Shown here one piece after another: positions 11,070 to 48,870 of a DNA stretch of 64,000 bases. Location of the stretch: positions 14,625 through 78,624 of the forward strand of contig OMXX01000011.1 of the NCBI GenBank assembly GCA_900315105.1, written 5' to 3'. Numbering within the stretch: position 1 is the stretch's first letter; every line of letters starts with the position of its first letter. The stretch is from an uncultured Prevotellaceae bacterium. Lineage in GTDB: Bacteria > Bacteroidota > Bacteroidia > Bacteroidales > Bacteroidaceae. Made by a program: the position numbers and the translations under genes. The notes beneath the pieces were generated by a model that saw only the letters and a list, made by a program, of their open reading frames with translations, was not told where the DNA came from and made no database searches.

Positions 11070-11187
11070 TCCGTTCTACCTCCGTTTCAAGTCCGTTGTA
11101 AGTCCGTTCCAGAACTATAGGATCATAGGAGGTATATAGGAGTCACATAGGACTTACATAGGATTTGCTTGGGAGGAAGAATAGGAT
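11070..11187. repeat. 11-bp periodic array 1a
   Basis: TCCGTT occurs at 11070, 11081, 11092 and 11103, exactly 11 bp apart. After a short phase change, TAGGA (once TGGGA) occurs at 11126, 11137, 11148, 11159 and 11170, again 11 bp apart, then at 11182. The spacer bases differ between units, so this is not a simple tandem repeat. It lies between the DUF418 gene start and the BspA-like gene end. Confidence 0.9.
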
Positions 11188-11221
11188 AAAACAGAATGGA
11201 GATTTGAAACAGACCGCCTTT

Positions 11222-11320
11222 CCTTCGTTCATCCTTCGCTATTTGTTCGTTCATCCTTCGATTCTGGAACGAAGAACAAGCGAAGGAACTGCAATTGCAC
11301 TACGGCAGATCTACGAAACG
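11222..11320. repeat. 11-bp periodic array 1b
   Basis: TTCG occurs at 11224, 11235, 11246 and 11257; the complementary CGAA occurs at 11270, 11281 and 11314, with CGGC at 11303 keeping the same 11-bp phase. The two halves are inverted relative to each other, so the transcript of the BspA-like gene would fold into a long imperfect hairpin starting about 30 nt after its stop codon. Confidence 0.9.
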
Positions 11321-11345
11321 AGAACAGAAACAGATATTATTCCTA

Positions 11346-13949
11346 TCATCGTTCTGTCTTTATTTCCTTAAAACCTTTAAATCGTTCGTCATGCCTATAT
11401 GCATATCCTGTACCGATAGGAACATACAGAGTACAGTCGGTTAAATCAAAAAACGGATAACCGTTAATTTTTATATATTCAGGATGCTCTTCACGTAAAT
11501 GTATTTCTGTTAAATTTGCACATCCACAGAATGCCATATCTTCAATAATTGACACACTATCTGGTATTTCAATAGAAATAAGGGAAGAACAATCACAGAA
11601 AGCATTGTCGTGTATCTTCCATGTTGTGTTATGAATTTTACATTTCCTTCTCCCACGAGGACATAATATAAGTTCCGATAAATCTTTTGAATAAAGAATT
11701 CCATCTACTGTTATATAATTTGCATGTGTATCAGGAACTTTTATATTTTCCAATGATTTAAGAACTAATAAACCAGACTTAGCCATATCCTGAATGTACA
11801 TCAAACAATTGGGAATGGAAATGGAAATCATGGATGAACAACCAGTGAACGCTTTTTCCCCAATACTTGTCACACTATTCGGAATCTCAATGGTAGTAAG
11901 GGATGAACAATTAGAGAAAGCATAAGGCTCAATACATGTCACAGCATTAGGAATCTCGATGGCAGCAAGAGAGGAGCAACCCGCAAAGGCCTCGTCTCCA
12001 ATCCTCGTAACGCAATTCGGAATCTTAATACCTTTCAAGGAAGAACAATCTTTGAATATTTCGTCTTCTATACAAGTCAAATTGTTCGGAAGTGATACAA
12101 AAGTAAGAGAAGTACAACCAGTAAACACGCCTGTGTCATATGCACGTCCTACATAGTATCCTATACTTGTCACGCTGTTCGGTATCTCTATAGAAATTAG
12201 GGATATACAGTTAGCGAATGCACCTCTTTCTATTTTTGTCACGCTATTGGGAATCTCAATAGAAGCAAGGGACGAGCACCCCATAAATGCACACTTTCCT
12301 ATATTAGTTACACCATACGGAATATTAATAGAGGCAAGAGAAGAACAACCAGAGAATATATAATGCGCAATATCTGTCATTCTATTTGGAATTCTTATCG
12401 AGGTAAGGGACGAGCAACCTCTGAATGCATATACCCAAATGCTTCTCACACTATTCGGAATTTCTATAGAAGTAAGAGAGGTACAGTTCTCGAAAGCACT
12501 ACCTCCAATACTTGTCACGCTATTTGGAATCTCTATTGAAACAAGAGAAGAACAACCGCTAAATGTTAGCCGTTCAATGCTTGTCACAGTATTTGGAATC
12601 TCGATAGAGATAAGGGATGAGCAACCTGAAAAAGCATTTTCTCCTATGATTCTCACACTATTTGGAATTTCTATAGAGGTAAGAGAAGTACAGCCTGAGA
12701 ATGCACCTTCTCCTATGCTTGTCACACTATTAGGTATTTCAATTGAGGAAAGGGATGAACAACCAGAAAATACATTTTCTACAATACTTTTCACACTGTT
12801 CGGAATTTCTATAGAGGTAAGAGAAGTACAGCCTGAAAATGCACCTTTTCCTATGCTTGTCACACTATTAGGTATTTCTATAGAGGCAAGAGAAGTACAG
12901 CCAGAAAATGCACCTTTACCTATGCTTGTCACGCTATTAGGTATTTCAACTGAGGAAAGGGATGTACACTCCGAAAAAGCATTTTCTATAATGTTTCTCA
13001 CGCTATTAGGAATTTCTATAGAGGTAAGAGAAGTACAGCCAGAAAATGCACCTTTACCTATGCTTGTCACGCTACTCGGTAATTCAATTGAGGAAAGGAA
13101 TGTACAACCCGAAAATGCATTTTCAACAATGCTTTTCACACTATTCGGAATCTTACAATTACCTTGTTTTCGTGAAGGACAACAAATAAGTTTTGTAAGA
13201 TCCTTGGAATATAAAACACCATCAATTGTTGTGAAATACGGATTAGCTGTCGAAACAAATATATCAATTAAGGAAGAACAACCATAGAAAACTCCATTCC
13301 CTATACTCATCACACTATTCGGAATCTCTACAGAAGTAAGCGAAGAACAACCAGAGAATACCACACTTCCAAGGATTATCACGCTATTTGGAATCTCTAT
13401 AGAAGTAAGGGATGTACAATCATGAAATGCACCATTTCCAATGTTTGTCACACTATTTGGAATCTCTATAGAAGTAAGGGATGTACAGCCTGAGAATGTA
13501 TAATCCTCAATGCTTGACACACTGTTCGAAATCACTATCGAGCAAAGAGAAGTACAATCTTCAAATGCCTTACCTCCAATGTTTGTCACACTATCCGGAA
13601 TTTCAATGAAGGTCAAGGATGAACAATTCGAAAATGCACTATCTTCGATGTATGTCATGGTATTGGGAATTACAATGGTAGTAAGCGAAGAAATGCTCCC
13701 ATGCCATTCTCCTGATCGTTTTTCTACCACTTTATCGTTATTAAATTTCCAACGTGGAATCCTTTGACCAGGCGGGACCCAAGTTATCAAATTCGAATGG
13801 CCAACAGGAACAGCATCCCACACTTCTGCGAATGCAAATTTCCCAATGCTTGTCACTCCATCAGGTATCACGACATTTTTAACATTCATATCACAACCAA
13901 CAACTTTCTTGCCATTTTCATTAAATTCTAAGTATGAATAATCTTCCAT
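11346..13949 (-). CDS. BspA-like leucine-rich repeat (LRR_5) protein
   Basis: The 867-aa product is almost entirely 23-residue LRR_5 repeats of the type SIEIPNSVTSIGKGAFSGCTS, about thirty of them, some nearly identical at DNA level. A short N-terminal part (MEDYSYLEFNENGKKVVGCD) and a C-terminal cap (LYVPIGTGYAYRHDERFKGF) flank them. BspA-type proteins bind host or bacterial surface ligands. Here neither a signal peptide nor a T9SS C-terminal domain is visible, so export is not supported by the sequence; a start further upstream is possible but I found none with a signal peptide. Repetitive DNA makes copy-number change by recombination likely. No promoter box is obvious upstream. Confidence 0.92.
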   Translation of the reverse strand: MEDYSYLEFNENGKKVVGCDMNVKNVVIPDGVTSIGKFAFAEVWDAVPVGHSNLITWVPPGQRIPRWKFNNDKVVEKRSGEWHGSISSLTTIVIPNTMTYIEDSAFSNCSSLTFIEIPDSVTNIGGKAFEDCTSLCSIVISNSVSSIEDYTFSGCTSLTSIEIPNSVTNIGNGAFHDCTSLTSIEIPNSVIILGSVVFSGCSSLTSVEIPNSVMSIGNGVFYGCSSLIDIFVSTANPYFTTIDGVLYSKDLTKLICCPSRKQGNCKIPNSVKSIVENAFSGCTFLSSIELPSSVTSIGKGAFSGCTSLTSIEIPNSVRNIIENAFSECTSLSSVEIPNSVTSIGKGAFSGCTSLASIEIPNSVTSIGKGAFSGCTSLTSIEIPNSVKSIVENVFSGCSSLSSIEIPNSVTSIGEGAFSGCTSLTSIEIPNSVRIIGENAFSGCSSLISIEIPNTVTSIERLTFSGCSSLVSIEIPNSVTSIGGSAFENCTSLTSIEIPNSVRSIWVYAFRGCSSLTSIRIPNRMTDIAHYIFSGCSSLASINIPYGVTNIGKCAFMGCSSLASIEIPNSVTKIERGAFANCISLISIEIPNSVTSIGYYVGRAYDTGVFTGCTSLTFVSLPNNLTCIEDEIFKDCSSLKGIKIPNCVTRIGDEAFAGCSSLAAIEIPNAVTCIEPYAFSNCSSLTTIEIPNSVTSIGEKAFTGCSSMISISIPNCLMYIQDMAKSGLLVLKSLENIKVPDTHANYITVDGILYSKDLSELILCPRGRRKCKIHNTTWKIHDNAFCDCSSLISIEIPDSVSIIEDMAFCGCANLTEIHLREEHPEYIKINGYPFFDLTDCTLYVPIGTGYAYRHDERFKGFKEIKTER

Positions 13950-14000
13950 ATTGTTTGTGGTATTAATTGTATATCAAGATTTTAGTGTATTTACTTTAAA

Positions 14001-14040
14001 GTAAGAATAAAGGTATCACAACAATATCCTTTATTCCTAC
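14001..14040. terminator. Hairpin between the esterase and LRR genes
   Basis: A 13-bp stem with one mismatch (GTAAGAATAAAGG / CCTTTATTCCTAC) encloses a 14-nt loop and is followed on the plus strand by seven T. Both neighbouring genes run on the minus strand, where the stem follows the esterase stop by 50 nt without a T-run, so its function as a terminator there is only plausible. Confidence 0.45.
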
Positions 14041-14090
14041 TTTTTTTATATAAAGAGGACAAAAGATCATCAAAGATGATGGATAAACGA

Positions 14091-15245
14091 TTAATAGTTA
14101 ATCCACTTCTTCAAATCCACCTTTCCTTCAAACTTTTCAGCCTTGCGAATGCCTGCTGTATTGACAGGTTTCTCAAAGAGGAAACGGTTGATGAAGGCAA
14201 GAACCTCCGGAAATTGCTCTTCTGGCAACTGACAATGTGGATGATTTCCGTTTATAGAATAACCCATACGGTCAGCAATACCGAAACGCTCCCATACCCT
14301 CATAGCGGCATTTACAGATACGTAGCCAGACTCATCGGCAAGCCATTTGTAGTCGGTGTTACCAAGCATAAGGAAAGCACGAGGACATACGAGGGCGCAT
14401 AACTCATGATGGTCGTATGGCAACTGATAGACGCTATCGCCATGAAACTGCTCCTTGAGGCTATGTTTGAACCAATGATAGTCGGTTCTGTCAAGGTCCT
14501 CAACACCATCTATGGTATGCGATACACGCCAAGCGGCAGCACCACCACCTCCTGGCTCCTGTGCTATGGTAAGAGCTACACGAGGGTCGAAGGCACCACA
14601 GAAGAGTGCCATCTTACCGGCATACGAACATCCCGTTACACCTATATGCTTTGTGTCAATCTTTGTAACCTCTGGGCCGAGAATCTCCAAGCCGTCAATG
14701 ATACGCTGAAATCCCCATGCCCACATGCTATATGCTCCATTATCAATGAGTTCGGGATAGAGACGCACAAAACCATAGTTGGTTCGGCAGGTATCGCCAC
14801 GGAACTGTGAATAGCCATTGACCTGACGCTCATTATAATTCATACGGGCAAGCGGAAGAGGATTGAGCAGGGTATCAGGAAGGGATATACGACTACTGCC
14901 TATCAGCAAAGGATAAGGCGCAGCACCCGTCTTTGGGTACTTGATATGTGAAGAGAGCGTGAGCGATTCCTTACCAACGGTAATGGTGACGAAGAGGGTG
15001 TCGTTATCCATGCGAGCCTTGATCTGGTCACGCTTCACCTCTGGAATAATGCCAATCTCATGCTGTTGGATAAGACTTGAGATTTCGTTACGACGCTCGT
15101 TCCATTCGGTGAGATTACTTACCTCGCCACTTTTCTTTTCCCATTTAAGAGGATTTGGAAGACTATGAGATTCTGTGGTTTGGGCACAACTTACAGTTGG
15201 CATTACAATAGCCAATGTTGCTAGGAGTAATAGAATACGGTTCAT
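14091..15245 (-). CDS. CE15-like glucuronoyl esterase / alpha-beta hydrolase, exported
   Basis: A 384-aa protein with signal sequence MNRILLLLATLAIVMPTVSC; the Cys could be a lipoprotein attachment site. The serine motif is GVTGCSYAGKMA, which matches the G-C-S-x-x-G-K nucleophile elbow of CE15 glucuronoyl esterases; the following QEPGGGGAAAWR holds the usual acidic residue, and NHPHCQ supplies the catalytic His. CE15 enzymes cleave ester links between 4-O-methylglucuronic acid of xylan and lignin alcohols, which suggests work on plant cell wall. It is not in a PUL here. The assignment rests on motif spacing; a related acetyl xylan esterase function cannot be ruled out. Confidence 0.8.
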   Translation of the reverse strand: MNRILLLLATLAIVMPTVSCAQTTESHSLPNPLKWEKKSGEVSNLTEWNERRNEISSLIQQHEIGIIPEVKRDQIKARMDNDTLFVTITVGKESLTLSSHIKYPKTGAAPYPLLIGSSRISLPDTLLNPLPLARMNYNERQVNGYSQFRGDTCRTNYGFVRLYPELIDNGAYSMWAWGFQRIIDGLEILGPEVTKIDTKHIGVTGCSYAGKMALFCGAFDPRVALTIAQEPGGGGAAAWRVSHTIDGVEDLDRTDYHWFKHSLKEQFHGDSVYQLPYDHHELCALVCPRAFLMLGNTDYKWLADESGYVSVNAAMRVWERFGIADRMGYSINGNHPHCQLPEEQFPEVLAFINRFLFEKPVNTAGIRKAEKFEGKVDLKKWINY

Positions 15246-15371
15246 TTACGTCAATTGAAAATTAAAGATAGAAAATTCATTATCGAGTGTAAAATTACAA
15301 CAAAATTCTGAAACTGAGAAGATTTTTAGACGATTTATTGCAAAAAATTCTTTCAAGTCCAGAAAATACGC

Positions 15372-15379
15372 TATATTTG
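15372..15379 (+). promoter_or_regulatory. Putative -7 box of the Gfo/Idh/MocA gene
   Basis: TATATTTG fits TAnnTTTG; the -33 element is not convincing. The leader would be about 110 nt. It lies in the divergent gap (15246-15491) between the esterase and the oxidoreductase. Confidence 0.5.
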
Positions 15380-15491
15380 CATCATCTACTGATCTATTCC
15401 TTATAAAATCATCCCAGAAACAGGAAAGAGATACAGAGTTTTTTCGGAAAAAATTATTATAACAAGGATCAAAAAAAATTAAAACATCATT

Positions 15492-16463
15492 ATGAAAATC
15501 GGAATTATAGGTGCAGGATGGATTGCAGAGAAGATGGCATTATCACTTCAAGCAAAGCCTCAGGATTGCGAGGTTTACGCAATAGCATCACGCAGCATTG
15601 AAAAAGCAAGGGATTTCGCACAAAAGTGGTCAATATCTAAGGCATACGGTTCGTATGAGGAACTTGTGAGTGACAATAATGTGGATCTAATCTACATCGC
15701 AACTCCTCATTCACATCACTATGAGCATACACGCCTTGCCTTGGAGCATGGAAAGCCTTGTCTGGTGGAAAAGGCTTTTACGGCAAATGCACGTGAGGCA
15801 GAGGAACTTCTTGCTCTTGCAAAGCAGAAGGACCTATTCATCACAGAAGCTATATGGACACGTTATATGCCTCTTTCGCATAAGGTTACGGAGATAATGC
15901 AGAGTGGCATTATCGGAGAACCAAGAATCCTGACAGCCACGCTCTGCTATATGATGGAGCACAAGGAAAGGATTGTAAGACCAGAACTCTGTGGCGGTGC
16001 CCTACTCGACCTTGGAGTTTATTGTCTGAACTTCGCAAGGATGTATTTCGGTACAGACATTAAGCGCACAGTTACGAATGTGCATATCGGTCCTACGGGA
16101 ATGGATATGCATGAATGCATCTCCCTATCATACGCTGATGGTAAGATGGCAAATCTGCAATCAGGTGCTTTATGTCTTAATGACAGACAAGGTATTATAA
16201 GCGGTGTGGATGGTTATATCCGTGTTGATAACGTGAACTGTCCAGAACTTGTTGAGGTGTATCGCAATTATGAACTCGTAGCAACATACAAAAAGCCAGA
16301 GGATATGGTTACCGGTTATGAGTATCAGGTGTTTGAGTGCAAGCGTTGTATAGAGCAAGGATTGCTTGAATCCCCAATGATGCCTCATGAGGAAACCCTT
16401 TCTATCATGAAACAGATGGATGAGTTGAGAAAGGAATGGGGAGTGAGGTATCCGATGGATTAA
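15492..16463 (+). CDS. Gfo/Idh/MocA family NAD(P)-dependent oxidoreductase
   Basis: A 323-aa protein with an N-terminal Rossmann fold (KIGIIGAGWIAEKMA), the family IATPHSHHYEH loop, and VEKAFTANAREAEELL where most relatives have EKP. The C-terminal alpha/beta substrate domain begins around residue 125 (EAIWTRYMPL). Closest in appearance to the trans-1,2-dihydrobenzene-diol dehydrogenase-like branch, which act on sugars or related polyols; the substrate cannot be told from sequence. It is cytosolic (no signal) and monocistronic, and its stop codon abuts a palindromic element. Confidence 0.88.
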   Translation: MKIGIIGAGWIAEKMALSLQAKPQDCEVYAIASRSIEKARDFAQKWSISKAYGSYEELVSDNNVDLIYIATPHSHHYEHTRLALEHGKPCLVEKAFTANAREAEELLALAKQKDLFITEAIWTRYMPLSHKVTEIMQSGIIGEPRILTATLCYMMEHKERIVRPELCGGALLDLGVYCLNFARMYFGTDIKRTVTNVHIGPTGMDMHECISLSYADGKMANLQSGALCLNDRQGIISGVDGYIRVDNVNCPELVEVYRNYELVATYKKPEDMVTGYEYQVFECKRCIEQGLLESPMMPHEETLSIMKQMDELRKEWGVRYPMD

Positions 16464-16641
16464 GACCTAACCAAGCCTTCCCCAAGGGAAGGATGTTTTA
16501 TAGTAAAAAACGCTCAAATGAGTTCCTCCATGATTAGAAAGACTAACTACTCCCCCTTGAGGGGGTAAGGGGGGAGGAGCCCTGACACATACTCGGAGAT
16601 ACTCAATCTCCGACTTCCTTTGGGGAGGGACTGGGTAGGTC
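16464..16641. repeat. Palindromic element filling a convergent gene gap
   Basis: Imperfect 24-25 bp inverted arms (16464-16487 and 16617-16641, outer sequence GACCTA/TAGGTC) enclose two smaller hairpins, one around CCCCCTTGAGGGGG and one around CGGAGATACTCAATCTCCG. It begins on the base after the oxidoreductase stop and ends within the stop codon of the ProX-like gene, so it fills the gap. It may serve as the bidirectional transcript end. Its core (CCTTCCCCAAGGG) resembles that of the element at 52024-52160. Confidence 0.75.
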
Positions 16642-17164: not shown

Positions 17165-17168
17165 TTTA

Positions 17169-17639: not shown

Positions 17640-17667
17640 GTTTTTACAGATAAATAATTAAACAATA

Positions 17668-22544: not shown

Positions 22545-22640
22545 TCCGCTCTAAAATATACCCTCCACCGACTTTGCACCGACTTTGCACCGACTTTGGT
22601 ACGGAGGAAGAGCGAAGGATCATAGGAGGAAGAACGGCAG
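22545..22640. repeat. 11-bp periodic array 2
   Basis: CG dinucleotides occur in phase at 22569, 22580, 22591, 22602, 22613 and 22635, with AG at the 22624 position. The first three units are identical (CACCGACTTTG), then the array changes to purine-rich CGGAGG and CGAAGG units. It lies 3' of the barrel gene's terminator and upstream of the clpS promoter. The rest of the gap to 22878 is AT-rich without further structure that I can see. Confidence 0.9.
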
Positions 22641-22878: not shown

Positions 22879-23187
22879 ATGAGTACACATACAAGAACAA
22901 TCCGTAGTAAACATACACAGTTCAAGTTAAAGGAACCACCCATGTATAATGTCATCATGCACAATGATGATGTTACGACTATGGACTTTGTTGTTTACGT
23001 TCTTGTAAGAATTTTCAGGAAAAGTGAAGAGGATGCTGAAACATTAATGCTAAAGGTTCATAATGAAGGAAGCGCAGTCGTCGGCACTTATTCCCAAGAC
23101 ATAGCACAAAGCAAGGCAAACTACACCATGAATCTCGCCAAGGCAAACAATTATCCACTAAAACTTACAATCGAAGAAACAAGATGA
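22879..23187 (+). CDS. clpS: ClpS adaptor protein
   Basis: A 102-aa protein with the ClpS core: MYNVIMHNDDVTTMDFVVYV, where the HNDD-TTM segment forms the N-degron pocket, followed by AETLMLKVHNEGSAVVGTY. ClpS delivers N-end-rule substrates to ClpAP. Its stop overlaps the clpA start by 4 bases (ATGA), so translation is coupled. The first 20 residues are a basic extension before the folded domain, as is common. Confidence 0.95.
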   Translation: MSTHTRTIRSKHTQFKLKEPPMYNVIMHNDDVTTMDFVVYVLVRIFRKSEEDAETLMLKVHNEGSAVVGTYSQDIAQSKANYTMNLAKANNYPLKLTIEETR

Positions 23188-29080: not shown

Positions 29081-29175
29081 CGGATCTAGAACGGATTCAG
29101 AACGGACTTACAACGGACTTGAAACGGAGCTAGAGCGAAGGCAGAACGAAGGCATAGCGAAGGATCAACGAAAGC
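29081..29175. repeat. 11-bp periodic array 3 (nine units in exact register)
   Basis: CG occurs at 29081, 29092, 29103, 29114, 29125, 29136, 29147, 29158 and 29169: nine consecutive steps of exactly 11 bp. The units drift from CGGATCT/CGGATTC/CGGACTT through CGGAGCT to CGAAGGC, CGAAGGA and CGAAAGC. It lies 55 bp 3' of the flavin reductase gene (minus strand). In that gene's sense direction the units are pyrimidine-rich TTCG/TCCGTT. The rest of the gap 28863-29080 is AT-rich with small palindromes such as CCCTTTTTAGGG. Confidence 0.95.
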
Positions 29176-29895: not shown

Positions 29896-30004
29896 CAGAG
29901 TGGCGCACGTCTCTGATTTCTGAGTGACTACGTGCATTGCACCTCGCACGAAAGAAATAGTGAGTATCGCTTGCAGAGCGGCGCACGTCTCTGATTTCTG
30001 AGTG
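29896..30004. repeat. 31-bp direct repeat in the flavin reductase leader
   Basis: The 31-bp sequences at 29896-29926 and 29974-30004 differ at one base. Each contains an inner inverted pair CAGAG...CTCTG and so forms a small hairpin around GCGCACGT. The second copy abuts the -7 box of the gene's promoter, so both would be transcribed in the 5' UTR. It could be a regulatory hairpin pair or a trace of a duplication. Confidence 0.85.
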
Positions 30005-30037
30005 CAAAGGTAAGAAAAAAAATTTCGGAACTGCAAG
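30005..30037 (-). promoter_or_regulatory. Promoter of the flavin reductase gene
   Basis: Minus strand -7 TACCTTTG (30005-30012) and -33 CTTG (30034-30037) are 21 bp apart. The mirror arm carries the same pair: TTG at 30403-30405 and TAACTTTG at 30427-30434. Confidence 0.7.
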
Positions 30038-30434
30038 GAAAATGTGAAAAAAAGCATGTTAGGTAGCAAATTTTTTTTTCAACGCACATAATCATCTGAC
30101 AATCAAAGATATAATTTTCGGAAAGTTGTTTACGGAAACCACGACCTAACATATAACAGTTATGTTAGGTATGGGAATAGGTATGTTATCTAAAAATTCA
30201 AATAATATATAATATAATTTTTATATTATATATTATTTGCCCAAAAATTTCAACTATCCCTCTCCCCCATCTAACATAACTGTTATATGTTAGGTTGCTT
30301 TCAATGGAAATTCTTTTCCGAAAATATTTCCCTGACAATCAACACATTACGTATGCCAGAATATATTTTTTGCTACCTAACATGTGTTTTTTCTTGTTTT
30401 CCTTGCAGTTCCGAAAAATAAAGTCGTAACTTTG
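30005..30434. repeat. Fold-back element B with a promoter at each end
   Basis: The whole 430-bp region is an inverted repeat with arms of about 190 bp. The outer arms are diverged but alignable (both contain TTTCGGAACTGCAAGGAAAA and ATGTTAGGTAGCAAA). A 25-bp segment is perfectly inverted (30144-30168 with 30271-30295) and is itself palindromic. The centre is a 19-bp perfect AT stem (30199-30217/30221-30239, loop TTT). Mirror-image promoters point outward: minus-strand TACCTTTG (complement of 30005-30012) towards the flavin reductase, and plus-strand TAACTTTG (30427-30434) towards the 3' end of pyrD. Confidence 0.9.
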
Positions 30435-30486
30435 CACACGCAAGGTACAAGCAGAAATCACGAATCACCCCAAGCAAATGCCCATC

Positions 30487-30590
30487 CTTCGTTCTGACTT
30501 CGCTTTACCTCCGTTATGCCTCCGTTGTGGCTTCGCTATTATAGCAGAGGATTAGCAGAGAAACAACAAAAGCATAACGACGGCACAAGG
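30487..30590. repeat. 11-bp periodic array 4
   Basis: CG occurs at 30490, 30501, 30512, 30523 and 30534; GCAG units at 30544 and 30555 keep the spacing, and CG returns in phase at 30578 (four steps of 11 from 30534). It starts about 30 bp 3' of pyrD. In pyrD sense the order is pyrimidine-rich (CTCTGCT) then purine-rich (AACGGAGG, CGAAGG). Confidence 0.9.
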
Positions 30591-38236: not shown

Positions 38237-38856
38237 TACTTTTTCTTCTCGTCCTTAGAAGATGCCTTTGAAAGGTCTGTCTTCTTGTAAGCCTTGTTAA
38301 GACCTGCAACCACCTGAGTAGTGATGTCAAGAGCCTTATCACCGTATAGGATGTTGTCACCCTGCTTTGTTAGAATGAGAGAGTACTTCTTGTCCTTGTT
38401 ATATACAGCGAGAAAATGCTGAATAGAGTCGCGGAGAGCCTTGTTGAACTTCTCTGTCTCGCCCTGGAACTCAGCACCGAGACGCTGCTGAAGACCTTCA
38501 AGGTCTGCCTGCTGCTTCTGAAGACCTGCCTGAATCTGGCGAGCCTGCTGCTCTGTATAGGCATTCTGCTGAAGCTTCTGCTGGAAATTAGCAGCCGCAT
38601 TCTGAAGAGCGTTTCCCTTCTGCTGAAGTGTTGACTGGATATTCTGACTCTTCTTCTCGAGGATGAGAGTATAGTCCTTGCAGAACTGGTACTGGCTCAT
38701 AATAGAGTCAACCTCAACAAAACCGATTTTAAGTTCTACAGGAGCTGTCTGTGAAGAGGCTGCTGCCTCTGGCTGCTGGTTAGACTTATCGCATGATGTG
38801 AATGATACGGCGAGAGCTGCTACAGCCATAGCCGATGTGAAAACCTTCTTATTCAT
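38236..38856 (-). CDS. OmpH/Skp-like periplasmic chaperone lipoprotein
   Basis: A 206-aa protein beginning MNKKVFTSAMAVAALAVSFTSC, a probable lipoprotein signal (Cys after FTS). The mature part starts with a Gln/Ala/Ser-rich linker, then IGFVEVDSIMSQYQF and a long Gln-rich coiled coil (residues about 70-150), ending with the OmpH closing strand YSLILTKQGDNILYGDKALDIT. Skp/OmpH family proteins hold unfolded outer-membrane proteins. It is the first gene of the four-gene envelope operon. Confidence 0.9.
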   Translation of the reverse strand: MNKKVFTSAMAVAALAVSFTSCDKSNQQPEAAASSQTAPVELKIGFVEVDSIMSQYQFCKDYTLILEKKSQNIQSTLQQKGNALQNAAANFQQKLQQNAYTEQQARQIQAGLQKQQADLEGLQQRLGAEFQGETEKFNKALRDSIQHFLAVYNKDKKYSLILTKQGDNILYGDKALDITTQVVAGLNKAYKKTDLSKASSKDEKKK

Positions 38857-38895
38857 TTCTTTTTTATATCTGTTTTTGTTCTGATTGCATTAATT

Positions 38896-39076: not shown

Positions 39077-40528
39077 ATGAATAAAAATAAATTAAATCCT
39101 GCATGTGTGTTTGAGCAATTTGCAAAAATCAACACTATTCCCCGCCCTTCAAAGCATGAGGAGAAGATGATTGCATTTCTGAAAGAATTTGGTGAGAGCC
39201 GTGGTCTTGAGACTATCGTTGACGAAACTGGCAACGTACTTATCCGCAAAAATGCGACTCCTGGCTATGAGAACAGGGAGACTATCATCCTTCAGAGCCA
39301 CATGGATATGGTATGTGAAAAACTGCCAGAATGCACTATTGATTTCAACAACGATCCTATAGAGACATATATTGATGGAGAATGGCTCCGTGCAAAGGGC
39401 ACCACACTTGGTGCTGACGATGGTATCGGTATCGCAATGGAACTTGCCTTGCTTGATTCTAACGACATAGAGCATGGTCCTATCGAATGCGTTTTCACTC
39501 GTGACGAAGAGACAGGCCTGACAGGTGCCGAGGGCATGAAGGCTGGTTTTATGACAGGTTCTATGCTTATCAATCTCGACTCTGAGGATGAGGGACAGAT
39601 ATTCGTGTCATGTGCTGGAGGCAAGCGAACTCAGGCTATTTTCAGACCGAAATACGAGGAGAATGTAAATGGTGTCTTCTATATGAAGATTGGCGTGAAC
39701 TCACTCACAGGCGGTCATTCAGGCGATGACATCAACAAAAAACGCGCAAATGCCGTTAAGTTGCTTGTACGCTTCATATATCAGGAAATGGAGAAGGGAA
39801 CGGTTCGTCTTGGCACACTCAAGGCAGGCGGTCTTCATAATGCTATTCCCCGTGACGGCGAGATGACTATTGCTGTTCCTTTTGCCCAGAAAGAGCAGAT
39901 ACGTGCAGATTTCAATATTTTCGTATCTGACGTTGAAGAGGAATTCCATGTTACAGAACCAAGTATCAATATGTATATGGAATCAACTGAGGCAGAGTCT
40001 CTTATGACTGAAGATGACAGCCGTAGAATCATCCTTGCACTTCAAGGCGTTGATAATGGAATTATGTCAATGTGTCAGGATCAGGCTATCGAATGGCTTG
40101 TAGAGACCTCAAGCAACCTTGCAAGTGCGAAGACACAGGAAGACGGTTCTGTCATCGTTACCACTTCACAGCGCTCAAACGTGATGTCTGCTTTGGATAA
40201 CATGTGTGCTACGGTTCGTGCCGTATTCCAATTAGCAGGTGCAGAGGTAGATACAGGCGAGGGCTATCCTGCATGGAAGATGAATCCTAACAGTCGTTTG
40301 ACAAAGATTGTCGTTGATACCTACAAAGAACTTTTCGATAAGGAGCCAAAGGTTCTCGGAATTCATGCAGGACTGGAATGCGGTCTCTTTGCCGAGCGAT
40401 ATCCGAACCTCGACATGGTGAGCATGGGTCCAACGCTTCGCGGAGTACATTCACCTGACGAGCGTCTGCTCATCCTAACCGTAGATATGGTTTGGCGACA
40501 TCTGCTTGAGATACTAAAGAAAGCGTAG
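39077..40528 (+). CDS. pepD: Aminoacyl-histidine dipeptidase (M20C, PepD-like)
   Basis: The 483-aa cytosolic metallopeptidase shows ILQSHMDMVCEK (zinc His and the downstream Asp), TTLGADDGIGIAMEL (bridging Asp), TRDEETGLTGAEGMK (catalytic and zinc Glu), LDSEDEGQIFVSCAGG and HAGLECGLF near the C-terminus with the last zinc ligand. It hydrolyses Xaa-His and other dipeptides, consistent with an amino-acid-fermenting gut anaerobe. Start chosen at the first ATG. It is followed by an 11-bp periodic array. Confidence 0.95.
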   Translation: MNKNKLNPACVFEQFAKINTIPRPSKHEEKMIAFLKEFGESRGLETIVDETGNVLIRKNATPGYENRETIILQSHMDMVCEKLPECTIDFNNDPIETYIDGEWLRAKGTTLGADDGIGIAMELALLDSNDIEHGPIECVFTRDEETGLTGAEGMKAGFMTGSMLINLDSEDEGQIFVSCAGGKRTQAIFRPKYEENVNGVFYMKIGVNSLTGGHSGDDINKKRANAVKLLVRFIYQEMEKGTVRLGTLKAGGLHNAIPRDGEMTIAVPFAQKEQIRADFNIFVSDVEEEFHVTEPSINMYMESTEAESLMTEDDSRRIILALQGVDNGIMSMCQDQAIEWLVETSSNLASAKTQEDGSVIVTTSQRSNVMSALDNMCATVRAVFQLAGAEVDTGEGYPAWKMNPNSRLTKIVVDTYKELFDKEPKVLGIHAGLECGLFAERYPNLDMVSMGPTLRGVHSPDERLLILTVDMVWRHLLEILKKA

Positions 40529-40536: not shown

Positions 40537-40665
40537 TCCGTTGCAGGTCCGTTACAAGTCCGTTGTAAATCCGTTATAAGTCCAATAATCCTCTGCTATT
40601 CCTCTGCTACTATAGCGGAGAAATAGCAGACAACAAACAGAGGCATAGCAGAGGATTAACGGCAG
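40537..40665. repeat. 11-bp periodic array 5 (twelve positions in register)
   Basis: CG occurs at 40539, 40550, 40561 and 40572 (TCCGTT units); the register continues through CCAAT (40583) and CTCTGCT units (40594, 40605), returns as CG at 40616, then CA in GCAG/ACAG units at 40627, 40638 and 40649, and CG again at 40660. That is twelve steps of exactly 11 bp with changing content. The CCTCTGCTAT units pair with later ATAGCAGAGG, so the pepD 3' transcript would form a hairpin. It starts 11 bp after the pepD stop codon. Confidence 0.95.
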
Positions 40666-40755
40666 ATTCGCGACAAATCATTGATGATTGTTGATTATTT
40701 CGAAGAAAAAACAACATTTTTCAATTCGAAACTTTCTTTTCTCAATAATTATTCA

Positions 40756-40763: not shown

Positions 40764-40774
40764 CATCCGAATAT

Positions 40775-40822: not shown

Positions 40823-40831
40823 ACACAAAGG

Positions 40832-41437: not shown

Positions 41438-41486
41438 TCAGACAGTAAAGATTAAAGAAACTATAATTATAAATCATAAAATCTCA

Positions 41487-42425: not shown

Positions 42426-42427
42426 TT

Positions 42428-42543
42428 AAGTGAAAAGTTAAAAGTTAAGAGTGAAGAATTTGAATTACATTGATTGCGAAAAGACGATTGACGGCCTTTA
42501 ACTGCAAGACAAACTCAAATTCTTCACTCTTCACTTTTCACTT
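42428..42543. repeat. Heptad inverted repeat between prs and uvrA
   Basis: The left arm (42428-42463) is a 7-bp-periodic array (GTGAAAA, GTTAAAA, GTTAAGA, GTGAAGA, ATTTGA); the right arm (42515-42543) is its inverted complement but one heptad shorter (29 against 36 nt). The stem ends 7 bp before the uvrA ATG, so it could act as the prs transcript end or mask uvrA translation initiation. Confidence 0.85.
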
Positions 42544-42550
42544 CCCTGAT

Positions 42551-45385: not shown

Positions 45386-45431
45386 CTCACTCCTTCATCC
45401 AATCATTTTCCCATTCAGGAATGGGATTTGC

Positions 45432-45472
45432 AACGGACTTACAACGGATTTACAACGGATTTACAACGGATT
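45432..45472. repeat. 11-bp periodic array 6
   Basis: Four units CAACGGACTTA, CAACGGATTTA, CAACGGATTTA, CAACGGATTTA with CG at 45434, 45445, 45456 and 45467. It lies about 48 bp 3' of uvrA and next to fold-back element C. Confidence 0.92.
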
Positions 45473-45500
45473 TATATTATCTATGGCCCTTTATACGATG

Positions 45501-45960
45501 CAAAGTTACAACATTTTCAGGAAAAGCCGACACAAAACATGGAAAAAAACGTGATTGCTTTCCCAAAAAAGCATTTCGTTTTCATAACGTACTGACATTC
45601 AGCAATATATTTTCGGAATACATTTCTCTCAAGCATTCCTTCAAATTTCCGTCATTAGTCATTAGTCATTTTCGTCATTAAGCGAGTTGATGACGGGCGG
45701 AAATCGGCTATATAGTAAAATATATTTATATATTTTACTATATAGAGGCAAAAATCCCCCCACTCACTTTCCTTAATGACGAAAATGACTAATGACTAAT
45801 GACGGACTTAATGACGGGACTTAATGACAAGCACAAATACGCTTCCGAAATTATTCTCCTGTATATCAGCGTGTTATAACGACAATTTTGATTTTCTTGT
45901 AAAAATACGTATCTTTTTCCATATTTCTTTGCAGAATCAAGAAAATTTGTTGTACCTTTG
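45501..45960. repeat. Fold-back element C with a promoter at each end
   Basis: A 460-bp nested inverted repeat. The centre is a 17-bp perfect AT stem (45708-45724/45729-45745, loop TTTA). Outside it lies a 35-bp perfect inverted pair (45648-45682 with 45772-45806) made of 7-bp GTCATTA units. The outer arms of about 115 bp are diverged but alignable (both have TACAACA...TTTTC, ATGGAAAAA...ACGT and TTTCGGAA). The minus strand at 45501-45508 reads TAACTTTG, pointing at uvrA's 3' end, and the plus strand at 45953-45960 reads TACCTTTG, driving the zinc-ribbon gene. Confidence 0.92.
45928..45960 (+). promoter_or_regulatory. Promoter of the 39-aa zinc-ribbon gene
   Basis: TTTG (45928-45931) and TACCTTTG (45953-45960) are separated by 21 bp; the ATG follows after 52 bp. 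Confidence 0.75.
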
Positions 45961-46012
45961 CAATCAGAATCAGTAACGCAACGGTCAAATACATCCTCAA
46001 ACAGTATTATCT

Positions 46013-46132
46013 ATGAAACCTAACGAATTTGAAAACGAATCAGGACTATGCCCTTATTGCGGTAGCGAGGACATACAGGTGCTTTGCGACGGTACTTACA
46101 GATGCCTTGAATGCGGAATGATGTGGAGATAG
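46013..46132 (+). CDS. 39-aa zinc-ribbon protein
   Basis: A complete short frame MKPNEFENESGLCPYCGS, then EDIQVLCDGTYRCLECGMMWR and TAG. The CPYC and CLEC pairs 19 residues apart form a zinc-ribbon as in TFIIB-type or RNA-polymerase-associated ribbons. A good promoter lies 52 bp upstream, supporting a real gene. It is too short for anything but a structural or nucleic-acid/protein-binding role. Its stop is 18 bp from the convergent DUF2207 gene end. Confidence 0.8.
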   Translation: MKPNEFENESGLCPYCGSEDIQVLCDGTYRCLECGMMWR

Positions 46133-46150
46133 CCGATAAAGACGAAAGCC

Positions 46151-48046
46151 TTACCAGCTACCGCCGCCACCGCCTCCTCCGCCGCCACCGGAGAAGCCAC
46201 CGCCACTATGCCCTCCTCCATGGGAAGAGCTATGAGAACATGACGAAACGTGACTGCGGACAGTATCATTCACGCTGCTAACCAAGTGATTGGTAAAGTT
46301 TGTTCCGTTATATATTCCGGCGGTAGTGTACCAATCAGGCTTCTCTACGGTAATGGTCTTGAACTTCCTTGCCCACGTATTTGCAAGTCCGAAGACCATA
46401 GCGTAAGGCAGGACGCGATAGAAATACTTCGCATCCTCCATCTGCAAACGCTCAAGGTTATCCTTCTCTGCCGTCTCAATAAACTCCTTGAAACCAAGCA
46501 GACGTCCCATCATGTCAATACGATAGTCTGTATTCAGTTTGAACCGTCCGCCAAGCTCCACGGTAAGGAAATTGGCAAGGAAGAACAGGAATATCTCCCA
46601 ATCAGCCATTGGAGAACCGTAATCCGTACATTGGCTATACAGCAAGGCCACCATAGCCATTATGGTGAACTTCATGAGAAAGATTATAACACGCTTAAAG
46701 GCTGAGGAATAGATGTCAGAATCACTTCCCGACAGACGCAATGACAACCCCAACCATGCAGGTAAAAGCCATTCCGTACCAGCCACAAATAACTCATCAA
46801 ACGTAAAGTACTGAACGATATTCGTAGCAATAGTGAGCGTACCGAACAATAGCAACGGAATGTACATATACACCCAAGAATCTGTCTTGACGAGGTTCTT
46901 CCTACCATCCTCGCTAAACACTTTCTTTAGTGCCGACTTCACCCCATTCATTTCAGAGGATTTATCGCCCAACTGACTGAGCCTCACCGTAGTCTTGCCT
47001 TTGGGGAAGAACAGCTCCATTAATTTTTTCTGATACGTCGGAGCATCCTCGGGCAGATTCTTAAGTTTCGTAAGCACTATCTTCTTGTTCTTATTCTCGT
47101 CAATCTTCAGATAGCCCTGCTCGGCAAGCCATGGGATAAGCGATGAAATATCACCTTCATCAGCACTATTGTCAATAATGACACCAACCTCCGCACTTGA
47201 AATACCCTCTGGAGGATAGAACTCAATCGTCTTTACCACGTTACGACCTCTGTCTATCGTCAATGCCCGGAAGACGATGACGAGAATACACACTACGGTC
47301 AAAGCAAGCCATAGGTAATGCCAGAAATACTGCACCTTCTCCACACCCTCGTAATACCCTTCAGGAAGTTCCATATAGGCTGTAATGGCATGGTTCGGCT
47401 GTATAGAGTCGCACATACCGGCTATGTATGTCGTAGTTGCCTCATATTCTATAGGTATGATATTGCTCTCACTTCCATAACTTCCGCTATACCATCTCAG
47501 ATTATCCACCGCTTTCTGAGGCAATGGTTTCTCAAATTCAATTCTGAAGTCAAAATGCCTTATATCCTCCTTGAAATCAGCTCCGAGAATGGTGTGAAAC
47601 AGGATGTCCTTGGTCGCTACACGGTCATCCGGATACTTGAACTTATAGCTTATCACATAGGTATTTATGCCCTTAACCATTCTGTCGGCATCACCTATCT
47701 GAATGATATAATTGTCCATTTCCTCTTTCTGCTCATGAACAGGGCCGCCTGTCACCTCCACATCGTCAATATCCACGATGTAAGGGAACTCCTCCCTACT
47801 CTTCTCCCCCGAAGAATTCGTCACATCATGCCAGAGACTGAACTTCATGGGAATGAAGCGATAGAATCCATGGCGAGGTTCAAGGAAGTTGATGACAAAT
47901 GTCTCCTTCACATCCCACACGTTATTCTTGTGAACGTAAGCCTCATACTTTACATTCTCATAATAAAAACCGCCTAGGTCGGCAAATGCACAGACACTCA
48001 CCAACAACAAGGCAAAGGAGAACAGCAATCTATGTAGCCTATGCAT
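46151..48046 (-). CDS. DUF2207 membrane protein with Gly-rich tail
   Basis: The start at 48046 (MHRLHRLLFSFALLLVSVCAFA) gives a signal peptide; the longer frame to 48151 runs into lemA. The 631-aa protein has an N-terminal extracytoplasmic DUF2207 domain (YEAYVHKNNVWDVKETFVI, HGFYRFIPM), a TM helix near HYLWLALTVVCILVIVF, a cytoplasmic part (EVGVIIDNSADEGDISSLIPWL), further TM segments, and a C-terminal Ser/His/Gly tail ending in a run of Gly and SW. The DUF2207-LemA pair is widespread and its function is unknown. It overlaps lemA by 8 bp. Confidence 0.9.
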   Translation of the reverse strand: MHRLHRLLFSFALLLVSVCAFADLGGFYYENVKYEAYVHKNNVWDVKETFVINFLEPRHGFYRFIPMKFSLWHDVTNSSGEKSREEFPYIVDIDDVEVTGGPVHEQKEEMDNYIIQIGDADRMVKGINTYVISYKFKYPDDRVATKDILFHTILGADFKEDIRHFDFRIEFEKPLPQKAVDNLRWYSGSYGSESNIIPIEYEATTTYIAGMCDSIQPNHAITAYMELPEGYYEGVEKVQYFWHYLWLALTVVCILVIVFRALTIDRGRNVVKTIEFYPPEGISSAEVGVIIDNSADEGDISSLIPWLAEQGYLKIDENKNKKIVLTKLKNLPEDAPTYQKKLMELFFPKGKTTVRLSQLGDKSSEMNGVKSALKKVFSEDGRKNLVKTDSWVYMYIPLLLFGTLTIATNIVQYFTFDELFVAGTEWLLPAWLGLSLRLSGSDSDIYSSAFKRVIIFLMKFTIMAMVALLYSQCTDYGSPMADWEIFLFFLANFLTVELGGRFKLNTDYRIDMMGRLLGFKEFIETAEKDNLERLQMEDAKYFYRVLPYAMVFGLANTWARKFKTITVEKPDWYTTAGIYNGTNFTNHLVSSVNDTVRSHVSSCSHSSSHGGGHSGGGFSGGGGGGGGGGSW

Positions 48047-48581
48047 TTGGCACCTCCCTCTCCGCAACATTCTGAATCTCATACATCTTCTTTGACTTGA
48101 ATCCGAAGATATTGGCAATGATGTTATAAGGAAACATCTGGCACTTGTCATTATACATCCTCACGCTACCGTTATAGTAACGTCGAGCAAACGCAATATC
48201 ATCCTCAACCTTCACAATACGTTTATGCAGATCAAGGAAATTCTCACTTGCCTTGAGTTCCGGGTATTTCTCCGCAATCACAAGAATACGGCTCAGAGCC
48301 TCGCCAATGCGCATCTCACCCTCAATCTGACCGTCGATATCACTTGTAGCCACACCTGCACGACGCTTGGTAAGTTCCTCAAGCGTGTCAGCCTCATGTT
48401 TGGCATACGCCTTGACTGTATCCACGAGATTCGGGATAAGGTCAAAACGCTGTTTGAGATACACGTCCATTGTAGAAAAAGCCTCCTTCACTTTGTTTGA
48501 AAGCTGAACAAGACTGTTATAAACGAAGATACAGGAAACGACAATCAGCGCTACTGCAACAATAAATATAATGTTTGTCAT
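48039..48581 (-). CDS. lemA: LemA family protein
   Basis: A 180-aa protein with an N-terminal membrane anchor (NIIFIVAVALIVVSCIFVYNS) and the LemA helical core VKEAFSTMDVYLKQRFDLIPNLVDTV, EDDIAFARRYYNGSVRMYND, ending KMYEIQNVAEREVPNA. LemA proteins are membrane-anchored helical bundles of unknown biochemical role. First gene of a two-gene operon with the DUF2207 protein. Confidence 0.93.
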   Translation of the reverse strand: MTNIIFIVAVALIVVSCIFVYNSLVQLSNKVKEAFSTMDVYLKQRFDLIPNLVDTVKAYAKHEADTLEELTKRRAGVATSDIDGQIEGEMRIGEALSRILVIAEKYPELKASENFLDLHKRIVKVEDDIAFARRYYNGSVRMYNDKCQMFPYNIIANIFGFKSKKMYEIQNVAEREVPNA

Positions 48582-48669
48582 AATGATATTTTTTCTATGT
48601 TGTATTTGTGACTTTTGTCCTCTTTTATAAAAACTTACAGATTAACGGAAAAGACTGTAAAATCCAATG

Positions 48670-48701
48670 CAAATTTACATTATTTCTTTAATATCTGCAA
48701 A
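48670..48701 (-). promoter_or_regulatory. Promoter of the lemA operon
   Basis: Minus strand -7 TAAATTTG (48670-48677) and -33 TTTG (48698-48701) are 20 bp apart. Confidence 0.65.
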
Positions 48702-48803
48702 TTTTGAGCAAGAAATAACAGAATCTGATCAACTGGAATCCGATGCAACAACGCAATAACTCCGTAGATCTGCCACTATGCCATTGCTGTATCTAGGCTT
48801 ATT

Positions 48804-48870
48804 CTCCGTTCCAGAATCGAAGGAAGAGCGAAGGAACAACGAAGGAAGAGCAACGAAAGAACGTAGGAAC
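48804..48870. repeat. 11-bp periodic array 7
   Basis: CG at 48807, 48818, 48829 and 48840, CA at 48851 and CG at 48862, all 11 bp apart. The first unit is TCCGTT, the rest CGAAGGAA-type. It starts 10 bp 3' of the PP2C-like gene stop (minus strand). Confidence 0.9.

Follow-up and report, generated by a model that had tools for sequence, protein, structure and literature searches.

Intergenic arrays in the window

The window, the whole stretch of DNA that was analyzed, comprises 64,000 nucleotides of contig OMXX01000011.1 from an uncultured rumen bacterium of the Prevotellaceae, placed by GTDB in the Bacteroidaceae. Seven of its intergenic regions, counted as eight stretches, carry arrays of 11-bp units (Table 1). 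The CG recurring every 11 bp, on which the first-pass annotation was built, was confirmed: 50 of the 53 CG steps fell in the main 11-bp phase of their own stretch (4/4, 9/10, 7/7, 9/9, 6/7, 6/6, 4/4, and 5/6, stretch by stretch). Long runs were found as well, but not of up to 12 steps as claimed; the longest were nine consecutive CGs at 29081-29175 and nine of 11 slots at 11195-11320. A common phase within each array had also been proposed. It was unbroken across the inversion in block 2 and across the strand flip at 40537-40665, and a single CG carries it across the flip at 30487-30590.

Table 1. Positions, strands, and composition of the 11-bp arrays in the window
Feature	Position	Strand	Description
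Array block 1a	11070..11113	+	Four TCCGTT units, 11 bp apart; CG at 11072, 11083, 11094, 11105
Array block 1b	11116..11165	+	TAGGA x4 in phase (11126, 11137, 11148, 11159)
Array block 2	11195..11320	.	TTCG units, then CGAA units; 9/10 CG in one phase, 11215 to 11314
Array	22545..22640	+	CACCGACTTTG x3 exact, degenerate units either side; 7/7 CG in phase
Array, nine units	29081..29175	-	Minus-strand reading: CTTTCG/CCTTCG, then TCCGTT; 9/9 CG in phase
Array	30487..30590	-	CTCTGCT units, then CGAA/ACGGA units (strand flip); 6/7 CG in phase
Array	40537..40665	+	TCCGTT x4, CCTCTGCT x2, then reverse-complement units; 6/6 CG in phase
Array of ACGGATTTACA units	45424..45474	+	Tandem Repeats Finder; one-armed; after UvrA-like gene
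Array	48804..48870	-	CTTCG units, then GGAACG; 5/6 CG in phase; Tandem Repeats Finder 48813-48869

Six of the seven regions yielded an 11-bp array, a 22-bp array, or both in Tandem Repeats Finder, including 11124-11163 (period 11) in block 1b, where a fifth TAGGA stands 8 bp ahead of the phased four, and 22566-22598 in the array at 22545. The array at 30487 was absent from its list; the lag method picked up 30486-30539. This array follows a dihydroorotate dehydrogenase gene and the one at 40537 an M20 peptidase gene, and the array at 48804 lies 3 bp past a gene end. By eye, several window arrays start no more than tens of bases from a stop codon, and some of them follow directly on a terminator-like hairpin. 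The lag method also caught AT-rich pieces of another kind at 38846-38886 and 55580-55614, with zero and one phased TCC/GGA, respectively.

The 11-bp period in window and relatives

Nine lag-11 arrays were found in the 10.6 kb of intergenic DNA of the window, whereas 10 dinucleotide-shuffled versions averaged 0.0; the peak is absent from shuffled sequence. The 52.7 kb of coding DNA contained none. With the first gene calls, intergenic DNA of the window had no arrays at lag 10 or lag 12; with re-trained calls, the counts were 10 at lag 11, one at lag 10, and none at lag 12. The whole-genome periodicity check was made on relatives of the window organism. The intergenic lag spectrum of G001C1 showed 27 arrays at 11, 19 at 22, one at 10, and three at 12. 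Intergenic TCC-TCC distances (864 kb, window plus close relatives) peaked at 11 (316), 22 (233), 33 (175), 44 (104), and 55 (69) over a background of ~50, and coding DNA of the same sources had no such peaks at 11 or its multiples. Only 5 of 101 arrays fell within coding calls, so nearly all are intergenic. The sharp peak at 11 and its multiples, nearly confined to DNA between genes, is what the first-pass annotation had anticipated for relatives. Eleven bases amount to roughly one helical turn of DNA. Period-7 arrays are also abundant in these genomes.

Unit anatomy and spacing

Each unit pairs a core of 6 bp with a more loosely conserved spacer of 5 bp. Adjacent units mismatched at 22-26% in core positions 4-6 versus 45-58% in positions 7-11, and GC by unit position ranged from 0.0 to 1.0, positions 1-3 being fixed by selection of the sample. 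Across 29 distinct copies of a single element class, located by their centre only, all 87 left-arm units had TCC (87/87), and unit position 8 held 0.35-0.47 bits. Inside one genome, cores vary from array to array (TCCGTT, TCCATC, TCCTAT, TCCAAT, ACCATT). Related genomes have period-11 or -22 arrays built on different cores, some of them lineage-specific (TCCNNN in G001-G006, AAGGTA in G036 and G062), and some other genomes have cores of ~10 bp at 22 or 44 bp. The description of the core as CG-centred is accordingly true of the window arrays but not of the family, whose commonest constant in relatives is TCC/GGA, not CG; the last three cores of the first list above, which lack CG, recur in many arrays of relatives.

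Once three TCCs stood in phase, the next came at 11 bp in 84 of the 154 instances, against one at 10 bp and none at 12 bp. The 224 adjacent unit pairs displayed 744 substitutions and one shift. As a neutral comparison, array-free orthologous gaps (12 orthologous pairs) gave 155 substitutions to 48 indels, a ratio that predicts about 230 indels for the arrays. Given that frame-shifting indels and periods 10 and 12 are nearly absent despite so many substitutions, the spacing of the arrays appears to be under selection, with most letter changes tolerated. Ordinary gain and loss of units combined with selection on spacing suffices, so a copying process counting 11, the other option raised at first, is not needed. 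The original interpretation of an exact period with drifting letters as a sign of selection is supported by these data. Spacing that is kept while letters drift is a rare and clean sign of selection on helix geometry.

Turnover and distribution

Orthologous gaps with an array on at least one side provided 35 comparisons. Both sides had an array in 10 and one side only in 25, of which 10 concern a single AT-rich piece. Arrays kept between species gained or lost units in steps of 11, the point that the first-pass annotation had suggested checking. There was no clean filled/empty site pair among the orthologous gaps inspected. A shorter version of the 30487 array, below the lag threshold, was present in L003, and the array was mostly lost in L001. 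At the place of the 40537 array, L001 and L005 have other arrays, L003, L004, and L006 have array-like inverted sequence below threshold, and L002 has nothing array-like. The gaps of L001, L002, and L003 orthologous to that of the 45424 array also have arrays.

The TCC type is patchy: any match at all occurred in 17 of the 101 family genomes and in 13 of the 119 from the order. It was commoner in convergent gaps (14/47 versus 35/285, Fisher p 0.0035, post hoc); when every lag-11/22 array was counted, divergent gaps were densest. Spacing of arrays along the chromosome showed no clear regularity.

Comparison with known systems

The arrays are not CRISPR arrays, which have 20-50-bp repeats and unique spacers, since the unit is 11 bp and the core 6 bp. 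Nor do they behave like simple minisatellites made by slippage with free unit length, as lags 10 and 12 are near zero compared with 11. In the centromere-like parC of plasmid R1 and in plasmid iterons, direct repeats of 11 or 22 bp place protein on one DNA face. Unlike these, the arrays studied here are many and chromosomal (51 of the TCC type within 864 kb) and occur in varied gene contexts. Eukaryotic foldback elements have inverted arms of short tandem repeats, and inverted arms built of tandem units are found here as well, although a large share of the arrays is one-armed. Porphyromonas gingivalis, another member of the Bacteroidales, harbors the BrickBuilt elements. According to PMC4596501, these are likewise always intergenic and made of tandem units, number 19 copies in one strain, are tied to assembly gaps, and have a 23-nt unit whose consensus is degenerate in a few places and a leader and tail with GAGACC ends. 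The arrays described here differ in their 11-bp unit, drifting letters, and often inverted arms, and no lag-23 array was detected in the window, G001C1, or G005C1. A dinucleotide periodicity of ~11 bp in bacterial intergenic DNA, described in PMC516772, PMC4132750, and PMC7537859, has the same period and, in E. coli, is also concentrated between genes, but is a genome-wide bias, whereas here discrete arrays hold 6-bp cores in exact register. BIME/REP sequences of E. coli are similarly intergenic, dispersed, partly palindromic, and present in many copies, and are linked to cleavage by gyrase, whose motif is long, degenerate, and periodic (PMC6379681). The arrays described here differ in having an 11-bp unit with drifting letters. 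A literature search found no description of such 11-bp intergenic arrays.

Candidate gyrase sites

As the best explanation, to which we assign a probability of a little under 0.4, we propose that the arrays are helix-phased sites between genes that act at the DNA level and are putative strong gyrase sites, like the BIMEs of E. coli. An array would be read from one helix face, and 11-bp units would put successive cores on nearly the same face of DNA with an in-cell helical repeat close to 11 bp. Arrays grow and shrink by whole units, and selection, as the substitution statistics indicate, purges spacing changes and spares most letter changes. The most likely reader would be a protein wrapping or polymerising along DNA, with DNA gyrase as first candidate. 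Periodic arms would then wrap on the GyrA C-terminal domains, the unit matching the cleavage consensus would serve as G-segment, and supercoiling from neighbouring genes would be relieved at the arrays, as at BIMEs.

The E. coli gyrase motif spans 130 bp and is symmetric with a 10.75-bp GC rhythm (PMC6379681); for the gyrases of three species, E. coli included, PMC12324340 gives the consensus GNANGNNCNTNC and a GC rhythm of 10-11 bp. The published consensus (-4G/-2A/+1G/+4C/+6T/+8C) was fixed before counting and ranked among 64 palindromic patterns. Matches at five or more of the six positions numbered 70 in 8.5 kb of arrays, compared with 288 in a further 129 kb of intergenic sequence, which placed the consensus first of the 64; exact matches numbered 11 and 2, respectively. 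In the window, exact matches lie at 11098-11109, inside block 1a, and at 29100-29111, in the one-armed array at 29081. A permutation null devised afterwards, in which unit columns were permuted 2000 times with period and composition kept, gave arrays with a consensus hit of 39/96 versus 12.6 expected in the main set (0/2000 permutations), 10/13 versus 2.3 in G062 plus G036 (0/2000), 7/12 versus 2.4 in six other genomes (3/2000), and 11/20 versus 4.5 in a sample not chosen by TCC (1/2000); G012 was left out of these sets. In the four sets, the consensus ranked 2, 2, 2, and 1 of 64. When total hits were counted instead of arrays with a hit, 200 of the 2000 permutations did at least as well as the six other genomes. 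With other gaps from the same loci as the reference, the ranks of the consensus out of 64 were 2 (G062), 2 (G036), 6 (G093), 4 (G027), 17 (G012), and, for the family sample, 5. Arrays of at least five units, with 57-139 overlapping matches per genome, have the periodic composition of ~10.5-11 bp over ~47 bp on one or both sides of a centre; many arrays are shorter. The excess of TCC-type arrays in convergent gaps, a post hoc result, also favours gyrase.

Several observations speak against gyrase. No hit at five or more of six positions was present in 57 of the 96 arrays, and most arrays are without a near-exact site. Removal of the commonest unit family reduced the excess to 22 hits versus 10.0 and the exact matches to one. 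Exact hits did not mark the middle of symmetric arms; their offsets from array centres ranged from -60 to +80 bp. The related patterns A.G.A, C.A.G, and T.G.A scored nearly as high, T.G.A even higher in the main clade, so the signal could stem from a broader palindromic preference for GGA/TCC. One set of elements, class A, has a fixed architecture of ~125 bp whose odd dyad and 13-bp step at the centre do not correspond to gyrase geometry. Furthermore, gyrase is universal, yet TCC-type arrays are patchy, arrays turn over fast (present on both sides in only 10 of 35 comparisons), and many are one-armed (25/96). The high density of lag-11/22 arrays in divergent gaps and the lack of clear regularity along the chromosome also count against gyrase.

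Alternative explanations

Another DNA-binding protein touching one face per turn, of nucleoid, filament-forming, or segregation type and with specificity differing by lineage, is a less probable candidate. Any same-face binder suits the core-plus-spacer anatomy and the period lock; the lineage-dependent cores suit such a protein, and the 22-bp spacing resembles that of plasmid iterons, the 11-bp spacing that of parC. Core changes from array to array inside one genome are, however, hard to square with a single sequence-specific protein, and this reading does not predict the gyrase consensus signal. We consider it improbable that the arrays are selfish or passively spread elements, foldback or MITE-like with arms of 11-bp repeats and no host function. 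The class A architecture, its centre pattern with 17-28 matches per genome, a fixed unit order recurring at several places in G004, and the excess of one-sided gap comparisons would agree with such spread, for which BrickBuilt, an intergenic MITE with a minisatellite, is a precedent (PMC4596501). Yet the information content of class A elements revealed no shared ends beyond the arms, an invariant core with free spacers is unexpected of decaying copies, a search with one class A element gave no match among 50,697 phage and 72,556 plasmid records, and a class A pattern was absent from viral contigs.

RNA folding, terminators, and free slippage fit the arrays less well. Hairpins in transcript ends or leaders, with arms paired in A-form, are very unlikely. 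A-form has 11 bp per turn, which spacings of 11, 22, and 44 match exactly; in 20 of the 96 arrays each of the two arms has three or more units, and the folding z falls below -2 in 22 of the 52 TCC-type arrays. Against pairing stand the one-armed arrays, the six TCC-type arrays in divergent gaps, and the agreement of hairpin partners (0.60), barely above non-partners (0.54) and below neighbours within an arm (0.69, 0.74). Sense energy was favoured in 16 of 30 arrays (p 0.73), implying no strand-specific folding relative to the gene, as a structured RNA or terminator would have, and Rfam at gathering score returned nothing in the window and only two tRNAs in ten loci. We regard it as equally hard to believe that these are neutral slippage minisatellites in which 11 is accidental. 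Slippage does make periods, unit number changes by whole units, period-7 arrays are abundant too, and G062 contains near-perfect unit copies; but an indel followed by slippage would give periods 10 and 12, both almost absent, the single shift contrasts with the number of indels predicted, and 11n spacing also occurs in lineages with unrelated cores. A role as transcription terminators, including Rho loading sites with regular YC steps, is highly improbable. The closeness of window arrays to stop codons and hairpins, and, for 19 of the 30 arrays in tandem gaps, a coding strand with more TCC than GGA, point that way; GGA exceeded TCC in 10 of 30, arrays occur in divergent gaps, and only 18 of 30 in tandem gaps are nearer to the stop than to the next start.

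Implications

If gyrase does read the arrays, strong gyrase sites could be predicted from sequence alone for a major group of gut and rumen bacteria, and it would become directly testable whether topological domains are encoded in bacterial intergenic DNA. A wider and doubtful version holds that the arrays may form an intergenic positional code, across genomes of the organism's family and some beyond, in which only 11n-bp spacing is conserved, the core is lineage-specific, and gyrase wrapping is placed to set topological units, perhaps every 10-20 kb. If another protein reads them, it would be an unrecognised chromosome organiser. Whichever the reader, arrays differ between close relatives and are possible markers. 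Some arrays break assemblies.

Spacing and Composition of the Arrays

Each intergenic stretch in which the first-pass annotation had recognized a CG-centered core returning every 11 bp did contain an array, i.e. a run of 11-bp units consisting of a 6-bp core and a looser 5-bp spacer, and the dominant 11-bp phase of the respective stretch accounted for 50 of the 53 CG steps. Tandem Repeats Finder detected units of 11 and/or 22 bp in all but one of the seven named regions, and the seventh was found by self-match at a fixed distance (lag). Nine intergenic arrays were detected in the window at lag 11 versus 0.0 in dinucleotide shuffles, and coding DNA had none. The phase shared by cores and their complements was also evident, as TTCG/TCCG switched to CGAA/CGGA without loss of the CG phase, most clearly at 11195-11320 and 40537-40665. 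The gene predictions come from a home-made caller that overlooked two genes in one run, one for a leucine-rich-repeat protein (11346-13949) and one for ClpS (22879-23187). The former encodes a BspA-type protein and contains 69-bp coding repeats.

The arrays are locked in their spacing, built of core plus spacer, restricted to intergenic DNA, and changed by whole units. Of 154 seeds, each made of three phased TCC and free of conditioning on what follows, 84 were continued by a TCC at 11 bp, 1 by a TCC at 10 bp, and 8 by a TCC at 7 or 8 bp, and 61 had none within 7-15 bp. Adjacent units mismatched at 22-26% for positions 4-6 and at 45-58% for positions 7-11, and 224 adjacent pairs held 744 differences. 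In array-free orthologous gaps, 155 substitutions stood against 48 indel events (12 pairs), a ratio from which about 230 indels would be predicted in the arrays; this contrast of spacing and letters is an upper bound because detection favors intact phase.

Abundance in Related Genomes

Relatives were found with the M20-peptidase protein of the window (39077-40528), whose best matches, full-length and 94-96% identical, were in loci L001-L006 of genomes G001-G006. These assemblies are labeled Prevotellaceae or Bacteroidales, and several bear names of the kind given to rumen metagenome genomes (RUG); the window therefore most probably stems from an uncultured Prevotellaceae bacterium of the rumen. 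Five TCC at 11-bp spacing gave 57-139 overlapping matches per genome in these relatives, whereas the reversed control pattern gave 2-11; seven other Prevotella-type genomes searched alongside had 0-4 matches. Arrays of lag 11 or 22 were then counted in 864 kb, comprising the window and contigs of G001-G005, where 96 were intergenic and 5 coding. In 51 arrays, three or more TCC or GGA were in phase, corresponding to about one such array per 17 kb. Fewer than three were present in 44 of the 96, leaving 52 (51 with other margins), and some of these 44 are due to AT-rich chance. The sharp 11-bp peak anticipated from the window persisted at this scale. Intergenic TCC-TCC distances peaked at 11 and at its multiples 22, 33, 44, and 55. 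A shoulder at 12 was absent, and distance 10 (77) was somewhat above distances 9 (46) and 13 (51). The intergenic lag spectrum consisted of two peak families, 7 (14, 21, 28) and 11 (22, 33, 44). Arrays were spaced more evenly than random on two contigs (6 and 3% of the null at or below) and less evenly on a third (93% of the null at or below).

Class A Elements

One class of elements, class A, has a fixed architecture of about 125 bp: the center TCCATCG-TTT-CGATGGA is flanked by three TCCAT units per side, beyond which lie units of the TCCGAAGATAC and TCCGCTCTTCC types. The center pattern matched 17-28 times per genome, a few places perhaps being counted on both strands. A search by the center alone gave 29 distinct copies. 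All 87 of their left-arm units carried TCC, 76 of the 87 right-arm units carried GGA, and unit position 8 was nearly free. Because dispersed copies are conserved with an 11-bp rhythm, these data point to contact with one face of the helix. We infer that the arrays are read by something on one face of supercoiled DNA.

Comparison between Species

In the gap after a UvrA-like gene, an ACGGA-type array was kept in the window, L001, L002, and L003, with 5 or 6 units (counted by eye), many substitutions, and all units in phase. The idea that arrays change between strains in steps of 11 agreed with another gap, in which G001 and G002 shared the right arm and the left arms differed by about three units. 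In the gap after the M20 peptidase gene, arrays above threshold were present only in L001 and L005, with other cores; L003, L004, and L006 had array-like inverted sequence below threshold, and L002 had none. Among 149 orthologous gap comparisons, 114 were array-free on both sides, 10 had an array on both, and 25 had one on a single side. An AT-rich piece at window 38846-38886 made up 11 of the 35 array-bearing comparisons (1 on both sides, 10 one-sided). Away from the post-UvrA gap and similar cases, array turnover is fast, and persistence at orthologous places is weak, a point that weighs slightly toward selfish elements and away from the gyrase reading discussed below.

Gene Setting and Other Identities

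An array of lag 11 or 22 was found in 18/52 (-+, divergent), 16/47 (+-, convergent), 34/154 (--), and 13/79 (++) gaps. When at least three phased TCC/GGA were required and AT-rich pieces excluded, a filter chosen post hoc, the +- gaps were highest (14/47), followed by -- (20/154), -+ (6/52), and ++ (9/79). Rho loading or another 3'-end function had been suggested by the impression that arrays in the window lie just after stop codons, but it was weakened by arrays in divergent gaps and rejected. Hairpin pairing as the selected property was likewise weak: outside the core, the class A arms pair poorly, with a partner identity of 0.60 versus 0.54 for non-partners. Gapless palindromy relative to random gaps exceeded the 95% level in 20 of 96 arrays, and folding of the arrays revealed no strand preference. 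Rfam returned two tRNAs and otherwise no match. A CRISPR-like array was ruled out by the unit, which is far too short. An origin from phages or plasmids was rejected on absent class A matches: the one element examined, at L105:1470-1620, matched nothing in phage or plasmid collections, and one class A pattern found nothing in viral contigs.

Arrays in Other Lineages

Period-11 arrays with their own cores occurred in other genomes of the family of G001, which we take to be the Bacteroidaceae (order Bacteroidales), namely AAGGTA-type arrays in G062 and G036. G093 and G027 had period-11 arrays of the CTAAAGGAGGA and CTAAGCTGCTC types; all four genomes, as well as G098, G068, G037, G012, and G008, were picked by TCC-pattern match, and their cores are therefore biased to TCC. 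A family sample was chosen independently of the pattern (33 of 40 loci kept, those of ≤10 kb being dropped; 630 kb). Here, lag 22 was the commonest intergenic lag (18 arrays in 12 loci; 2 in coding DNA), and lags 44, 11, 23, and 20 gave 11, 1, 0, and 2 intergenic arrays. Lag 21 gave 10 arrays, with 9 in coding DNA. An order-level sample (32 of 40 loci kept, those of <5 kb being dropped), which may include family members, had 5 intergenic arrays of lag 11 and 1 of lag 22 versus 8, 6, and 6 of lags 7, 8, and 16. Spacing at 22 bp thus seems most pronounced among the family loci sampled. Lag-11 arrays were absent from 100 kb of E. coli K-12.

Four loci from the family of G001 (L175, L200, L203, and L208) had intergenic cores of ~10 bp every 22 or 44 bp with variable spacers, and some of these cores were palindromic, e.g. 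CAACATGTTG. In L151 and L153 (G062) and likewise in L154, L155, and L157 (G036), near-perfect 11-bp arrays (TCCAAGGTACG, TCCTACGACGT, and others) lay next to runs of N or where a contig ends. Because of this location, such arrays seem to break short-read assemblies.

Gyrase as a Candidate Reader

Gyrase was chosen as a candidate because it has a long published motif (PMC6379681, PMC12324340) that is symmetric and degenerate and has a period of 10-11 bp. The cleavage consensus (six positions), as given in PMC12324340, was fixed first and counted only afterward. Arrays contained 70 matches versus 21.7 in plain shuffles, a first count for which stricter nulls were used later. Compared with other gaps (70 versus 288 matches), the consensus was enriched 3.7-fold, which placed it at the top of the 64 palindromic patterns sharing its layout, and it still ranked first after the commonest unit family was removed. 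Exact matches numbered 11 in arrays and 2 in other gaps. The number of arrays with a match exceeded a column-permutation null in four sets (ranks 2, 2, 2, and 1 of 64); by number of matches, the consensus failed against this null in six other genomes (200 of 2000 permutations). Ranked against other gaps in G062, G036, G093, G027, G012, and the family sample, it was at 2, 2, 6, 4, 17, and 5, G012 being outside the column-permutation sets. Counting against gyrase, a near-exact site was absent from most arrays, existing sites were off-center, related patterns scored nearly as well, and the class A dyad was wrong. For these reasons, the gyrase step of the mechanism, as judged from sequence, is a tentative proposal to which we give a probability of roughly 0.4.

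Relation to Other Repeats

No description of such arrays was found in the open full-text literature of one library. The nearest published cases were BrickBuilt of P. gingivalis (PMC4596501), whose unit is 23 nt, and the dinucleotide periodicity of 11 bp in bacterial intergenic DNA (PMC516772, PMC7537859). Against the background of known kinds, i.e. intergenic dispersed repeats and periodic DNA sites, what we regard as new is the period lock. A gap of contig G002C2 near 94.9 kb carried ACGTGAGTTCGA and TCGAACTCACGT, and L006 carried ACGTGAGTTCGA near 15.5 kb. Because both resemble the termini given for the P. gingivalis elements MITE239/MITE700 in PMC4596501, related MITEs are suggested to be present in the clade of G002 and L006.

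A second type of intergenic array has period 7 (14, 21, 28), is AT-rich, and often lies at or near a stop codon or the next start; period-7 and 11-bp arrays numbered 31 and 27 in contig G001C1 and 31 and 19 in G005C1.

Period-7 arrays and nested inverted repeats of the window
Feature	Position	Arms of AT-rich palindrome
Period-7 array	42428-42457	
Period-7 array	42521-42543	
Period-7 array	45651-45670	
Period-7 array	45784-45803	
Period-7 array	51614-51645	
Period-7 array	58407-58455	
Nested inverted repeat, first	30002-30437	30199-30217/30221-30239
Nested inverted repeat, second	45648-45822	45708-45725/45728-45745

The window also harbors two large nested inverted repeats, each around a perfect AT-rich palindrome and with outer arms of the TAACATATAACAGTTATGTTA or GTCATTAGTCATTA type. 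At the place of the second, L003 kept the AT-rich palindrome and had different outer arms.
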